DNA of 50,651 nucleotides, from contig NZ_JAJAFU010000018.1 of assembly GCF_020480685.1 (NCBI RefSeq), positions 1-50,651 on the forward strand, written 5' to 3'. Shown here piece after piece: positions 6,793 to 50,155 of this stretch. The position numbers and the translations under genes are program-made. Under the pieces are notes generated by a model. That model searched no databases. It was not told where the DNA came from and worked only from the letters and a program-made list of their open reading frames with translations. Origin of the DNA: Deferrivibrio essentukiensis. Lineage in GTDB: Bacteria; Chrysiogenota; Deferribacteres; Deferribacterales; Deferrivibrionaceae. The stretch's first letter is position 1. Each line of letters begins with the position of its first letter.

Positions 6793-7050
6793 TCAATAAG
6801 TTATAAGTTTTTTATCCTTTAATACTTTAAAAATTGTCTCTTCTTCATTATCAGTGATAACTAATCCTCTCAATTTCATAGCATAAATAATCCTTTGCCA
6901 CTCTGTTTCGCTTCTACTTTTTAAATAAACTATATCACTTTTATGACAATTACCGCATTTTGCATCAATAATATTATAATTATTACTAAAACAACCGTAA
7001 AGTACACTAACAAATACGAGGCAAAAGATTACCATCAGGCATTTCAACAA
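6793..7050 (-). CDS. small monohaem c-type cytochrome lipoprotein
   Basis: This 85-aa protein has a hydrophobic signal ending in a lipobox (LYGC, Cys20), then a single haem-binding CGNCH at 33-37 and a helical C-terminal half. It is therefore probably a periplasm-facing, lipid-anchored electron carrier with one c-haem. I do not recognise a named family. The frame opens at a TTG (7050) with GGGGG about 8 nt upstream, and an ATG five codons later (7035) is the alternative. The TTG start supplies the positive charge a signal peptide normally has. It overlaps hypE by 44 bases, and the hisI coding frame follows after 4-40 bases depending on its start. Confidence 0.75.
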   Translation of the reverse strand: MLKCLMVIFCLVFVSVLYGCFSNNYNIIDAKCGNCHKSDIVYLKSRSETEWQRIIYAMKLRGLVITDNEEETIFKVLKDKKLITY

Positions 7051-10096: not shown

Positions 10097-10119
10097 AAAA
10101 AGCCCGGCTATTGCCGGGC
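10095..10119 (-). terminator. intrinsic terminator of the multihaem cytochrome gene
   Basis: A perfect 7-bp GC-rich stem (GCCCGGC with GCCGGGC, 4-nt loop) is followed on the minus strand by seven T. It starts 6 bases after the cytochrome stop codon and closes the atp-cytochrome unit. Confidence 0.93.
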
Positions 10120-10125
10120 ATTTGA

Positions 10126-11664
10126 TTATTTATGACAAGTAGTGCAGCTTGTACCTTTTGGCACCTTATTCTCCTTATGGCAAGGGAAACAAAGTTGTTT
10201 ATGGAAATCGTTGTTTGTCCCTGAAAGACTGGTAACTTCAAAATTCAGTTTACCCTCTTCAGGATTGCTGTGACACTCGTTACAGGAAATCTTTTCTGCA
10301 TGTTCTTTATGCTTAAATATAACAGGCTTTTTAGTAGTTTCAATACCATGCTGTTCAGCTAAATTAATCTCTTCTGGAGCTATTTCCATAAGCTCAGCAG
10401 GATTTCCTGCAAACTCTTTTTTCTCAACTGCTTCAGTTTTCTCTTCTGTAGCACTCTCTACCTTGTTAGTTTCGGCAGCTTCCATATGAGCCTTTTCAAC
10501 CTTAACCGGCTCAACATACTCTTCAGTAGCCTTTAAAAGTTCATTAGCCTTTTCAAAAATCATGTCAAAATATTCAGGATTATGAACCCCTTTAGAGCCA
10601 TCCATCTCAAGAAGTCTGACAAGTCTATTTGCTTCATTAAACAGTTTTCTCTTACCTTCAGGCATTTCAAGTCTTTCAGCAAACAGTCTATCTCTTACCT
10701 TTTGTACATTAGCAAGCTTCTCAAGATAGCTCTTCTGTATATCAAACATCATAGGAGCATATGACTCATCATGGCAGCTTACACATTTGTCAGAATTTGG
10801 CCTTGAAAAAGCATCGTCATGGCAGTCAGCACAGCTTAAATCTGCCATATACCAAGGTGTTTCTTCAATACCTTTGACATAAACCCCTTGCTGTATACCT
10901 TTCTGCATGGTATGACACTTTTCACACTCATCATTTTTAGGTGCAGAAATGTTTTCATTTTTAGCTCTTTCAGTATAGTGGCAAGTAAAACATGTTTCCA
11001 TCTTAGGTAAATTATGAAACTCGCCGCCGTGTGCCACACCTAAATGACAATCAACACAATTTAAACCTGCTTCCAATATATGTTTAGCATGATTCGGCTC
11101 AACCCCTACACTAACCTTCTGAGAAAGGATATCAGGTCTACCAAATGACTCTCTAAATTTAGGATTAACGACATTATCAATTTGTCTGAAATTGACACCA
11201 ACAGACATCACATAATTTTTTCTATTGTACTCATTAACAACATCTGAGTGACAATGAAGGCATGTTTCATTAGGTACGAGCTCGGCTGCATACTCTTTAT
11301 TGGTTGCACCTTTAGTCAGTATTTCAACCTTGTGCTCATAAGATTTAAAAAACTCACCGTATAAATCTTTAAGACCGCCTACCTTGGCCTTCATATATCC
11401 TACAAATCCAGGTTTTCCGTGACAGTCGATACATTCAACTTCTGCTGTAGAGTGTATATTTTTTGACCATGTATGATATTCCCCAAGAGGTCCTACCTTC
11501 TCTTCAGGGTGACATGAACCGCAAAATTTAGACTCTGAAGTTATATGGAGTATCTCGACATTTGCAAAAGTAAACCCAACAACAAGAAAAATAATAACTA
11601 AAACAAAAACAACAGGATCTTTTCTTATAAACTCTCTTAATTTACTTAATAAGTTTCCTAACAT
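10126..11664 (-). CDS. undecahaem c-type cytochrome, NapC/NrfH-like head with C-terminal c7-like triple-haem tail
   Basis: The 512-aa protein has an N-terminal membrane anchor (about 17-34) and eleven CxxCH haem motifs at about 48, 78, 135, 203, 225, 247, 278, 294, 461, 492 and 507. The anchor plus the first haems resemble the NapC/NirT/NrfH quinol-oxidising family. The last three haems, with FKHKEHAEKISCNECH, resemble class III (c3/c7) domains. A Glu/Lys/Ala-rich linker of about 160 residues separates haems 8 and 9. I infer that it takes electrons from menaquinol and passes them to periplasmic acceptors; the acceptor is unknown. It lies 40 bases downstream of atpE, across a hairpin, with a good ribosome site (GAGGTGG). 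It does not match a standard named protein I know. Confidence 0.9.
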   Translation of the reverse strand: MLGNLLSKLREFIRKDPVVFVLVIIFLVVGFTFANVEILHITSESKFCGSCHPEEKVGPLGEYHTWSKNIHSTAEVECIDCHGKPGFVGYMKAKVGGLKDLYGEFFKSYEHKVEILTKGATNKEYAAELVPNETCLHCHSDVVNEYNRKNYVMSVGVNFRQIDNVVNPKFRESFGRPDILSQKVSVGVEPNHAKHILEAGLNCVDCHLGVAHGGEFHNLPKMETCFTCHYTERAKNENISAPKNDECEKCHTMQKGIQQGVYVKGIEETPWYMADLSCADCHDDAFSRPNSDKCVSCHDESYAPMMFDIQKSYLEKLANVQKVRDRLFAERLEMPEGKRKLFNEANRLVRLLEMDGSKGVHNPEYFDMIFEKANELLKATEEYVEPVKVEKAHMEAAETNKVESATEEKTEAVEKKEFAGNPAELMEIAPEEINLAEQHGIETTKKPVIFKHKEHAEKISCNECHSNPEEGKLNFEVTSLSGTNNDFHKQLCFPCHKENKVPKGTSCTTCHK

Positions 11665-11681
11665 ATCCCACCTCGAGGAGA

Positions 11682-11698
11682 AGGGGCTTTAAGCCCCT
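11682..11698 (-). promoter_or_regulatory. intercistronic hairpin between atpE and the cytochrome gene
   Basis: A perfect 7-bp GC-rich stem (AGGGGCT with AGCCCCT, 3-nt loop) lies between the atpE stop and the next ribosome site. On the minus strand it is followed by TTCTCC, not a T tract, so it is unlikely to be a full terminator. It may stabilise the 3' end of a processed atpE message or cause partial termination. Confidence 0.55.
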
Positions 11699-11704
11699 AA
11701 TTAA

Positions 11705-12028
11705 TTATACAACAAAGAGAAGTATCAAAGCTACAACAAGAGCGTAAATAGCAAGTGACTCGATCATCGCAAGACCGATAATCATTGGAGTCATAATTTT
11801 ACCAGAAGCTCCTGGGTTTCTTGAAATACCTTCAACAGCACTTGCAACAGCTTTACCCTGTCCAAGACCGGTACCAAAAGCAGCGATACCCATACCAAGC
11901 CCGGCAGCAAGATATACAGCCCACTTAGCAGAGCTTGCATCTGCACCTGCTTCAGCAGCAAATGCACTCATTGCTGAAACAGCTAACACTGCAACAACAC
12001 TTAATACTAAACGTACAACTTTTGACAT
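11705..12028 (-). CDS. atpE: F0F1 ATP synthase subunit c
   Basis: Subunit c forms the membrane rotor ring. The 107-aa sequence is longer than the usual 70-90 because of an N-terminal signal-like extension with an AMSAFA-AE cleavage-like site (about residue 24). The two hairpin helices follow (about 36-62 and 78-106), joined by the polar loop RNPGA. The ion-binding carboxylate is Glu90 in [14 protein letters not shown]. Gln57, Ser91 and Tyr95 stand at the positions of Na+ ligands in Ilyobacter/Propionigenium c-rings, but the Thr after the Ser is Leu92. There is a strong ribosome site (AAGGAGG). It follows atpB in the usual order; the F1 genes are not in the window. Confidence 0.97.
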
Positions 12029-12048: not shown

Positions 12049-12720
12049 TCAGTGTGCTTCTTCAAGAGCACCACTAATATAAATCATTGACAACATCATA
12101 AAAACATATGCCTGCAACGTACTTGTAAATACTGCCATAAAATACATAGGCAATGGTACTAAAAAAGGAACTAAAATAAAAAGAATTATAATAACCAAGT
12201 CTTCACCAAAAATATTACCAAAAAGCCTCATAGATAAAGAAAGTGGTCTTGACAGGTGACCTATAAGTTCAATTATGATCATTAACGGAGCAAGCCAAGG
12301 TATAGGTCCCATAAAATGTTTAACATAGTGTGCACCATGCTTTTTTATGCCTATAAAATGATACGTAAAAAACACAATAAGTGCCGGTGCAGCGGTAGTG
12401 TTTAGACTTGCTGTCGGTGCAGCAAAACCTGGTATTATACCCAATAAATTTGAAAAAAGGACATATATTCCTATTGCAAAAATAAGAGGTATATAAGGCT
12501 CACCCTCTTCACCCATAACGTCTAAACCCATCTTACGAATACCGCCAACGAGTAGCTCAAACACGTTTTGACCTTTTGTTGGGACTTCACTTTTCATTCC
12601 TGAAGCAACTTTACCAAGAAAAAGCACTAAAAGTATAACAACAAATGTCATTAAAACATGAAGATATTTTGCCACAATTTCATGGGGCAAAAATGAAAAA
12701 ATATTAAGTGGATGTTCCAT
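12049..12720 (-). CDS. atpB: F0F1 ATP synthase subunit a
   Basis: Subunit a forms the ion half-channels next to the c-ring. The 223-aa polytopic protein carries the essential arginine (Arg165) in SLSMRLFGNIFGE, and GHLSRPLSLS just before it is typical. NLLGIIPGF (91-99) is another family block. It starts directly after the AtpI stop, with AGGAGG 9 nt before the ATG. No subunit b gene follows; the next gene is atpE, so this is a separate a-c cluster. Confidence 0.97.
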   Translation of the reverse strand: MEHPLNIFSFLPHEIVAKYLHVLMTFVVILLVLFLGKVASGMKSEVPTKGQNVFELLVGGIRKMGLDVMGEEGEPYIPLIFAIGIYVLFSNLLGIIPGFAAPTASLNTTAAPALIVFFTYHFIGIKKHGAHYVKHFMGPIPWLAPLMIIIELIGHLSRPLSLSMRLFGNIFGEDLVIIILFILVPFLVPLPMYFMAVFTSTLQAYVFMMLSMIYISGALEEAH

Positions 12721-13068
12721 CTAACTTTTCCTCCTAACAGCAATAATAGCACTCACAGGTAAGCACACGGCAACTACACTTAAGCCGACTAGCAAACCAG
12801 TAATATCAACCTCATAGTATTTAAACCACAAAACCATAACAAAAGCCGTCAACAGCAATCTAAACTGACTGTTAAACACCAAAGCTCTTGTGATGTTGTT
12901 TTCAAAACCACCTTTTATTTTGTTAGCAAGCCCGTAGTAGTTTAGCAACGAAATAACCCAGCCAAACAAAAAATTAGTAGCAGCAACATCACTTTTGAAA
13001 TTCCTGAATACTGTATACAAAATCACAAAAAAAATCAACGATATAATTAAAAGAATTTTACTCGTCAT
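12721..13068 (-). CDS. ATP synthase protein I family (AtpI-like) membrane protein
   Basis: This 115-aa protein has four predicted membrane helices (about 4-22, 33-50, 68-86, 90-108) and matches the general pattern of the small ATP synthase I family that precedes atpB. In other bacteria AtpI helps c-ring assembly or Mg2+ supply. Sequence conservation is low, so the call leans on topology and on position directly upstream of atpB. It overlaps the preceding gene by 11 bases. Confidence 0.8.
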   Translation of the reverse strand: MTSKILLIISLIFFVILYTVFRNFKSDVAATNFLFGWVISLLNYYGLANKIKGGFENNITRALVFNSQFRLLLTAFVMVLWFKYYEVDITGLLVGLSVVAVCLPVSAIIAVRRKS

Positions 13069-33416: not shown

Positions 33417-34607
33417 TTATTCTATTATTTCAGTAACTACGCCAGCACCAACTGTTCTACCACCTTCACGAATCGCAAAGCGTAATCCCTGATCCATTGC
33501 TATCGGCTGTATCAAATTAACTTCACAGCTTATATTATCTCCAGGCATTACCATCTCTACTCCCTCAGGCAATGTAACTACTCCAGTTACATCTGTCGTC
33601 CTGAAGTAAAACTGTGGTCTGTATCCACTGAAAAATGGCGTATGACGACCACCTTCTTCCTTAGTCAATATATATGCCTCACACTTAAATCTTCTATGCG
33701 GTGTAATGCTACCAGGCTTAGCCAATACCTGACCACGCTCTACCTCATCCTTCTTAATTCCTCTAAGAAGTACACCAACATTATCCCCTGCTACACCTTC
33801 ATCAAGTATCTTACGGAACATCTCTACACCAGTTACTACCGTCTTCTGAGTCTCCTTAATACCTACTATCTCTACTTCATCTCCAACCTTAACTACACCC
33901 TTCTCAACTCTACCTGTTACAACTGTTCCTCTACCTGATATACTGAAAACATCCTCTATCGGCATCAAGAAAGGCTTATCAATATCTCTCTGTGGCTCAG
34001 GTACATAATCATCCAATGCCTGAACAAGCTCAAGAATCGCTCCAGCCCACTTCTCATCTGTTGGATTCTCCAACGCCTTCAATGCACTACCTTTGATAAT
34101 TGGTATATCATCTCCAGGAAACTCATATGTACTCAATAAGTCCCTAATCTCAAGCTCGACAAGCTCTAAAAGCTCCTCATCATCTACCATATCTACTTTG
34201 TTCATAAATACTACAATATAAGGAACTCCTACCTGACGTGCCAAAAGTATATGCTCTCTTGTCTGTGGCATAGGACCATCTGCTGCACTTACTACCAATA
34301 TAGCTCCGTCCATCTGCGCTGCACCTGTAATCATGTTCTTTACATAGTCAGCGTGACCAGGACAGTCTACGTGTGCATAGTGACGCTTCTCACTCTCATA
34401 CTCAACATGCGCTGTAGCAATAGTAATACCTCTCTCACGCTCCTCAGGAGCCTTGTCAATATTACCATAATCTACAAACTCAGCCAAACCCTTATGTGCC
34501 AAAACTGAGGTAATAGCTGCTGTCAATGTAGTCTTACCATGGTCAACGTGACCTATCGTTCCTACATTAACGTGAGGTTTCTTCCTTTCGAACTTCTGCT
34601 TTGCCAT
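33417..34607 (-). CDS. tufA: elongation factor Tu, copy A
   Basis: EF-Tu carries aminoacyl-tRNA to the ribosome. The 396-aa GTPase shows the G motifs GHVDHGKT (19-26), DCPGH (81-85) and MNKVDM (near 136), plus the C-terminal barrel domains with [14 protein letters not shown]. It follows fusA by 15 bases with ribosome site GGAGGAAATT. Its protein is identical to copy B at 48.97 kb; the reading frames differ by one silent base (codon 16, GGA here, GGG there) and in the stop codon (TAA here, TAG there). Confidence 0.99.
33418..34607. repeat. direct repeat, tufA copy
   Basis: This 1190-bp block matches 48966-50155 with a single mismatch that I could find (34560 t versus 50108 c). Similarity stops at the reading-frame ends: the flanking ribosome sites and the first base of the complemented stop codon differ. 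The same orientation and about 15.5 kb spacing make it a substrate for recombination or gene conversion. Confidence 0.95.
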
Positions 34608-48964: not shown

Positions 48965-50155
48965 CTATTCTATTATTTCAGTAACTACGCCAGCACCAAC
49001 TGTTCTACCACCTTCACGAATCGCAAAGCGTAATCCCTGATCCATTGCTATCGGCTGTATCAAATTAACTTCACAGCTTATATTATCTCCAGGCATTACC
49101 ATCTCTACTCCCTCAGGCAATGTAACTACTCCAGTTACATCTGTCGTCCTGAAGTAAAACTGTGGTCTGTATCCACTGAAAAATGGCGTATGACGACCAC
49201 CTTCTTCCTTAGTCAATATATATGCCTCACACTTAAATCTTCTATGCGGTGTAATGCTACCAGGCTTAGCCAATACCTGACCACGCTCTACCTCATCCTT
49301 CTTAATTCCTCTAAGAAGTACACCAACATTATCCCCTGCTACACCTTCATCAAGTATCTTACGGAACATCTCTACACCAGTTACTACCGTCTTCTGAGTC
49401 TCCTTAATACCTACTATCTCTACTTCATCTCCAACCTTAACTACACCCTTCTCAACTCTACCTGTTACAACTGTTCCTCTACCTGATATACTGAAAACAT
49501 CCTCTATCGGCATCAAGAAAGGCTTATCAATATCTCTCTGTGGCTCAGGTACATAATCATCCAATGCCTGAACAAGCTCAAGAATCGCTCCAGCCCACTT
49601 CTCATCTGTTGGATTCTCCAACGCCTTCAATGCACTACCTTTGATAATTGGTATATCATCTCCAGGAAACTCATATGTACTCAATAAGTCCCTAATCTCA
49701 AGCTCGACAAGCTCTAAAAGCTCCTCATCATCTACCATATCTACTTTGTTCATAAATACTACAATATAAGGAACTCCTACCTGACGTGCCAAAAGTATAT
49801 GCTCTCTTGTCTGTGGCATAGGACCATCTGCTGCACTTACTACCAATATAGCTCCGTCCATCTGCGCTGCACCTGTAATCATGTTCTTTACATAGTCAGC
49901 GTGACCAGGACAGTCTACGTGTGCATAGTGACGCTTCTCACTCTCATACTCAACATGCGCTGTAGCAATAGTAATACCTCTCTCACGCTCCTCAGGAGCC
50001 TTGTCAATATTACCATAATCTACAAACTCAGCCAAACCCTTATGTGCCAAAACTGAGGTAATAGCTGCTGTCAATGTAGTCTTACCATGGTCAACGTGAC
50101 CTATCGTCCCTACATTAACGTGAGGTTTCTTCCTTTCGAACTTCTGCTTTGCCAT
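48965..50155 (-). CDS. tufB: elongation factor Tu, copy B
   Basis: The protein is identical to tufA at 33.4 kb (396 aa, motifs [19 protein letters not shown]). It lies directly after four tRNA genes and before rpmG, the E. coli tufB arrangement. The ribosome site (GGAGGGAGAACT) differs from that of tufA, and the stop codon is TAG. The first gene of the operon to be translated, it probably adds to EF-Tu supply under the tRNA promoter at 50.6 kb. Confidence 0.99.
48966..50155. repeat. direct repeat, tufB copy
   Basis: This is the partner of 33418-34607: same orientation, 1190 bp, one mismatch found (50108 c). The flanks are unrelated on both sides, which marks the limits of the homogenised tract. 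Confidence 0.95.

Follow-up and report, generated by a model that had tools for sequence, protein, structure and literature searches.

A conserved 11-haem membrane cytochrome of Deferribacterales, encoded beside F0 ATP synthase genes and built of NrfH-like, OcwA/NrfA-like, and tethered cytochrome c7 modules

A gene for a membrane-anchored cytochrome with 11 haem motifs follows the F0 ATP synthase genes in Deferrivibrio essentukiensis, and the locus raises the question of what this protein is composed of, how it arose, and which role it has. The window, that is the whole stretch of DNA analyzed, comprises 50,651 nt of contig NZ_JAJAFU010000018.1, and the gene is a single unbroken open reading frame on the minus strand (10126–11664; ATG at 11664, stop at 10126) encoding 512 aa. 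The haem motifs start at aa 48, 78, 135, 203, 225, 247, 278, and 294 and then at aa 461, 492, and 507; all eleven are CxxCH, and CxxCK is absent. An earlier note made from the sequence alone had described 11 CxxCH motifs in groups of eight and three, an N-terminal anchor, and a Glu/Lys/Ala-rich stretch, and all of these are present in the open reading frame. Its separation of about 160 residues between the two groups also holds (162 residues from motif 8 to motif 9); however, the separating region is not a linker throughout because aa 302–381 form three confident helices. All 11 motifs and the linker are kept in 22 intact orthologues from five families, including that of the window (relatives are 45–92% identical), and the arrangement is therefore not due to chance.

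The N-terminus (MLGNLLSKLREFIRKDP-VVFVLVIIFLVVGFTFA) is positively charged and of the uncleaved anchor type, and an AlphaFold2 model combined with conservation analysis places the membrane anchor helix at aa 17–41 (11542–11616, minus strand) with an invariant His40 at its periplasmic end. The helix is followed by a NapC/NrfH-like part with haems 1–3 (aa 42–150; 11215–11541, minus strand). The domain search that the earlier note had proposed identified the NapC/NirT N-terminal family (Pfam NNT, PF03264) at aa 18–147 with 56.6 bits against a curated cut-off of 24.1, as well as c7/c3-type and class III matches further on. A profile built from residues 1–200 finds Desulfovibrio vulgaris NrfH (2j7a_C, E 2.2e-5), and in this alignment Lys94 and Asp100 line up with a Lys and an Asp that we take to belong to the quinol site of NrfH. 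Both residues are swapped together for His and Ser in the same 12 Geovibrionaceae-type heads (L013–L023, L066). The haem 1 motif has the context CGSCHPE and thus lacks the methionine of the CxxCHxM motif, which is a ligand of the quinol-side haem in NrfH (PMC8840924); its place as haem 1 ligand may be taken by the invariant His40, which sits at the edge of the membrane. Because Foldseek and VIA-align searches with the N-terminal half modeled on its own (pLDDT 80) gave no match, NrfH included, the NrfH likeness of this half rests on sequence. The cut-off of the NrfH equivalog TIGR03153 was not reached (51.7 bits vs 134.2), and neither was any other NCBIfam whole-protein cut-off, which agrees with the earlier note, where no named family with this order was recognized. 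The NapC/NrfH likeness that the earlier note had seen in the anchor and first haems extends over haems 1–3 but not beyond haem 3; haems 6–8 are of a different type. Within the window genome the 11-haem protein is the only full-length NNT match, and the same is true of several relatives.

Haems 4–5 (aa 186–241; 10942–11109, minus strand) lie in a part that resembles the c7-type part of ActA from alternative complex III (ACIII) according to profile matches to 8k9e, 6lod, and 6f0k at profile positions 181–235, and Pfam c7/c3-type matches cover aa 188–298. In the AlphaFold2 model of the whole protein, which was built with 32 sequences and has a pLDDT of 81, confident helices are found at 302–329, 336–353, and 363–381. 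Together with haems 6–8 these make up a module (aa 246–378; 10531–10929, minus strand) that includes the invariant His361 and matches the module of haems and helices at the C-terminus of OcwA (6i5b) with a Z score of 11.6 and an rmsd of 2.0 Å over 127 residues at 27% identity; the helical share of this score alone could reflect a common arrangement, and the match also takes in the haem motifs and the conserved His361. The next fold matches are MccA, the Carboxydothermus undecahaem cytochrome, octahaem nitrite reductase, and NrfA, and sequence profiles independently reach OcwA and octahaem nitrite reductase. As modeled, haems 6–8 and about half of the supposed linker, that is the approximately 80 residues of the three-helix bundle, form an OcwA/NrfA-type folded part of the head. 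Given NapC/NrfH-like haems 1–3 and OcwA/NrfA-type haems 6–8 with their bundle, the head itself is composite. The remainder of the linker is a disordered Glu/Lys/Ala-rich tether at about aa 384–420 (10405–10515, minus strand), in which pLDDT values below 50 are confined to residues 389–416. By composition the disordered stretch spans about 37 residues, 59% of them Glu, Lys, or Ala, and with a contour of about 13 nm at most it could in principle reach across much of the periplasm.

The tail (aa 421–512; 10129–10404, minus strand) carries haems 9–11. The earlier note had likened it to a triple-haem class III domain, and this likeness is supported by profile matches: the best PDB match of the tail alone is cytochrome c7 (1ehj, E 1.9e-5), and the best Cytochrom_CIII stretch in Pfam is aa 440–511. 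The tail shares three CxxCH motifs and an FxHxxH start with the cytochrome c7/PpcA/"nanowire" triheme domain (1ehj, TIGR04257), although it scores 32.9 bits against the TIGR04257 cut-off of 40 and, unlike those proteins, is joined through a tether to a membrane cytochrome, at the C-terminal end of the latter. It also resembles a secreted triheme c7 (identity up to 47–54%) for which almost every genome of the order has a stand-alone gene. The 11-haem protein is, in sum, composed of an NrfH-like anchor, an OcwA/NrfA-like core, a flexible tether, and a cytochrome c7 tail, and this domain order is real and conserved, lacks a name, and is built of known modules.

The NrfH/NapC/CymA family (PF03264) shares the N-terminal anchor, the first haems, and the aligned Lys and Asp; however, its members have 4–5 haems rather than 11 in 512 aa, and the window protein lacks the CxxCHxM methionine and scores far under the NrfH and NapC equivalog cut-offs. 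Membership in CymA is rejected because CymA is a tetrahaem protein of about 187 aa (PMC6295460). Geobacter ImcH is likewise an inner-membrane protein with a NapC-like start and additional haems, but it crosses the membrane with three helices and its first motif is CX3CH (PMC6295460), whereas the window protein has one helix (aa 17–41) and CGSCH as its first motif, and ImcH membership is therefore rejected as well. OcwA (6i5b), the Carboxydothermus undecahaem cytochrome (6qvm), octahaem nitrite reductase (3f29), and NrfA (2j7a) share the C-terminal haem cluster, the three-helix bundle, and the conserved His; unlike them the window protein is membrane-anchored, has no CxxCK catalytic haem, and has a different N-terminal half. 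By description it can also be likened to Thermincola ImdcA, a multihaem cytochrome of the inner membrane for which an interaction with menaquinone has been proposed (PMC7911101), which has 10 haems and comes from another phylum. No named family of this architecture and no mention of its association with atp genes turned up in the literature searched, and an earlier description may exist in the literature on Deferribacteres energy metabolism.

The gene order at the locus is hemL, atpI, atpB, atpE, cytochrome. On the minus strand, an atpI-like gene (12721–13068), atpB for F0 subunit a (12049–12720), and atpE for F0 subunit c (11705–12028) precede the cytochrome gene, which begins 40 bp after atpE. 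In all 22 11-haem loci with both genes on the contig, which represent five families, the cytochrome gene lies 17–79 bp downstream of atpE and in the same orientation. Linkage to atpB–atpE is also seen for several 8-haem genes of Deferribacterota and for those of Geothermobacter and near relatives (Desulfuromonadales). General synteny as the sole cause is rejected because the genes downstream of the cytochrome vary between families, whereas atpI–atpB–atpE–cytochrome is constant. The gap between atpE and the cytochrome gene (11665–11704) contains a hairpin (AGGGGCTTAAAGCCCCT; 11682–11698, minus strand), and a GC-rich hairpin recurs there in most relatives' loci with differing sequences, often followed by T, although the z-scores of single hairpins are modest. 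A terminator-like hairpin with a T-run lies just past the cytochrome stop codon (10102–10119, minus strand). This organization suggests an F0–cytochrome unit with separate control of its last gene, and the hairpin in front of that gene is possibly an attenuator or RNA-stability element.

Among 40 Deferribacterales genomes, 23 encode the 11-haem form (one copy is split at contig ends), 14 encode an 8-haem form, and three encode neither. Tail-less 8-haem relatives, which have the same head without a fused tail and in some cases lie beside atpB–atpE, are found in gut Deferribacterota and in Desulfuromonadales including metal reducers. In the head tree the 11-haem heads form one clade (support 100/99) and the Desulfuromonadales 8-haem heads another. 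In the tail tree, where short sequences leave some forks open, the fused tails neighbour free triheme c7 proteins, apart from the repeats of Nitrospirota. Because the 11-haem heads form one clade, the head tree fits a single fusion of a c7 tail onto an 8-haem protein in the ancestry of free-living Deferribacterales; loss of the tail in tail-less lineages is a less simple alternative. The donor type of the tail, a secreted triheme c7, persists alongside as a separate gene. The family is a clear-cut natural example of how a diffusible cytochrome was turned into a tethered domain, for which the free paralogue and the relatives without a tail can serve as controls. Nitrospirota relatives with 12 haems have the same first half followed by three other consecutive c7 repeats, without the helix bundle, and are a parallel case of module addition. 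Some Desulfuromonadales encode a separate triheme protein shortly upstream of the 8-haem gene. The Desulfuromonadales loci L094, L104, L107, L108, and similar ones have a gene for a weakly related 9-haem protein of about 620–660 aa directly upstream of the 8-haem gene, and in two loci this gene sits between atpE and the 8-haem gene.

Could the head be catalytic? We surveyed non-motif residues in 68 heads of 11-haem, tail-less Deferribacterota, and Desulfuromonadales proteins and found that H40, H71, H192, H195, H212, M222, and H361 are invariant (68/68) and that M273 is kept in 67. These eight conserved residues are candidate distal ligands for the eight head haems, and their pairing with individual haems is tentative. 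In three Mucispirillum copies (L037:7481-8821, L039:7100-8437, and L040:7813-9156) the motif of haem 8 is CX3CH (e.g., CGTNCH), so that these 8-haem proteins have seven CxxCH motifs and one CX3CH. The fold of aa 246–378 would suit a membrane-anchored multihaem reductase of the nitrite, sulfite, or hydroxylamine type that uses the OcwA/NrfA-like core. We regard this as very improbable, since the absence of CxxCK makes catalysis unlikely and, with a conserved candidate distal ligand for each head haem, an open coordination site is not obvious.

The window genome encodes a cbb3 oxidase (CcoN and CcoO), and searches of it for bc-type cytochrome b (PF13631), for ActD of ACIII, and for NrfA (PF02335) gave no match; a bc or ACIII complex is thus rejected as the quinol oxidizer in this genome. 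With cbb3 present and neither cytochrome bc nor ACIII detected, the 11-haem protein is the best candidate link from menaquinol to the periplasm. Nine genomes that are at least 90% complete have a match to the haem-copper oxidase family without cytochrome b, and all nine encode this head; the oxidase is confirmed as cbb3 in the window genome, and PF00115 also covers nitric oxide reductases. Some relatives, including Deferrivibrio metallireducens (G001), do have cytochrome b. The bc-free argument fails beyond the order, where seven of eight genomes with relatives of the protein have cytochrome b.

On these grounds we think that the 11-haem protein rather probably acts as a menaquinol-to-periplasm electron conduit, a reading in which quinol oxidation, haem attachment, direction, and partners are all inferred. 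The N-terminal helix would anchor the protein and place the haems in the periplasm, and menaquinol would be oxidized beside haem 1 at the NrfH-like site (Lys94/Asp100). Electrons would then pass along the eight head haems, with haems 6–8 and the helix bundle serving as an OcwA/NrfA-type core for transfer rather than catalysis, and the c7 tail on its Glu/Lys/Ala tether would take electrons from the head and deliver them to periplasmic partners, replacing a freely diffusing triheme c7. The missing methionine at haem 1 and the replacement of Lys94/Asp100 in the 12 Geovibrionaceae-type sequences speak against a conduit. Quinol could also be oxidized through NapGH or through a b-type cytochrome encoded beside other multihaem genes of the window genome. 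A protein that mainly runs in reverse, as a quinone reductase fed by periplasmic donors, would have a precedent in CymA- and CbcL-type proteins, which occur in organisms using either direction (PMC6295460); no periplasmic donor system is linked to the gene, however, which is linked to atpIBE, and we hold this for the most remote of the readings considered here. As a conserved, testable candidate, the protein may provide the quinol-to-periplasm route in Deferribacterota.

An orthologue that is 92% identical to the window protein has already been described under another name. In D. metallireducens V6Fe1 a gene named "cymA" (DSN97_06310) adjoins the ATP synthase genes DSN97_06300-305 (PMC11896075). 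Because its position matches and because the D. metallireducens genome contains no other full NapC-type match, DSN97_06310, published as tetraheme CymA, is the 11-haem protein, and the "tetraheme CymA" label in this 2025 expression study should be read accordingly. By RT-qPCR, DSN97_06310 transcripts were seen only with fumarate, were highest on fumarate without nitrate and lowered by nitrate, and went undetected with H2 plus nitrate (PMC11896075). This pattern disfavours a constitutive hub role of the conduit. There is also a more specific version of the conduit, in which a bc1-independent, single-subunit 11-haem quinol:cytochrome c oxidoreductase, encoded with F0 genes, replaces complex III and the mobile cytochrome in several Deferribacterales, the tethered c7 tail being a built-in shuttle to cbb3 and other periplasmic acceptors. 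We offer this version as a conjecture that could be right but that we doubt.

The authors of the RT-qPCR study propose that "cymA" acts with fumarate reductase (PMC11896075), and a donor to periplasmic fumarate respiration or fumarate disproportionation would explain why the orthologue is expressed mainly on fumarate. Those data come from a single study with three conditions. Membrane fumarate reductases of the Frd/Sdh type take quinol directly, and we therefore judge such a role improbable. FrdABCD has been reported for the phylum (PMC12887300).

The relative in which the CymA label was given reduces Fe(III) (PMC11896075), homologues occur in metal-reducing Desulfuromonadales, and the best fold match, OcwA, is a cell-surface reductase, all of which would suit a protein devoted to the initial step of extracellular (metal) electron transfer, a functional counterpart of CymA or ImcH. 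Almost all genomes of the order nevertheless encode the head, including those of gut lineages and those of Calditerrivibrio and Deferribacter desulfuricans, which are described as not iron-reducing, and a multihaem cluster with its own b-type cytochrome is located elsewhere, so that we find this dedicated role unlikely. For D. autotrophicus, a Nap system has been reported without NapC, and CymA, ImcH, and CbcL homologues have been reported as absent (PMC6896113).

Several further observations were made in passing. In two genomes of the window's genus (D. metallireducens, G001, locus L047; and G002, locus L144) a second gene for haem-copper oxidase subunit I is located a few kb away from the gene of the free triheme c7. 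Within the window, a small open reading frame for a single-haem, lipoprotein-like protein (6793–7050, minus strand) overlaps the 3' end of hypE and is conserved among relatives (41–87% identity), and the two tuf copies (33417–34607 and 48965–50155) have an identical translated sequence of 396 aa.
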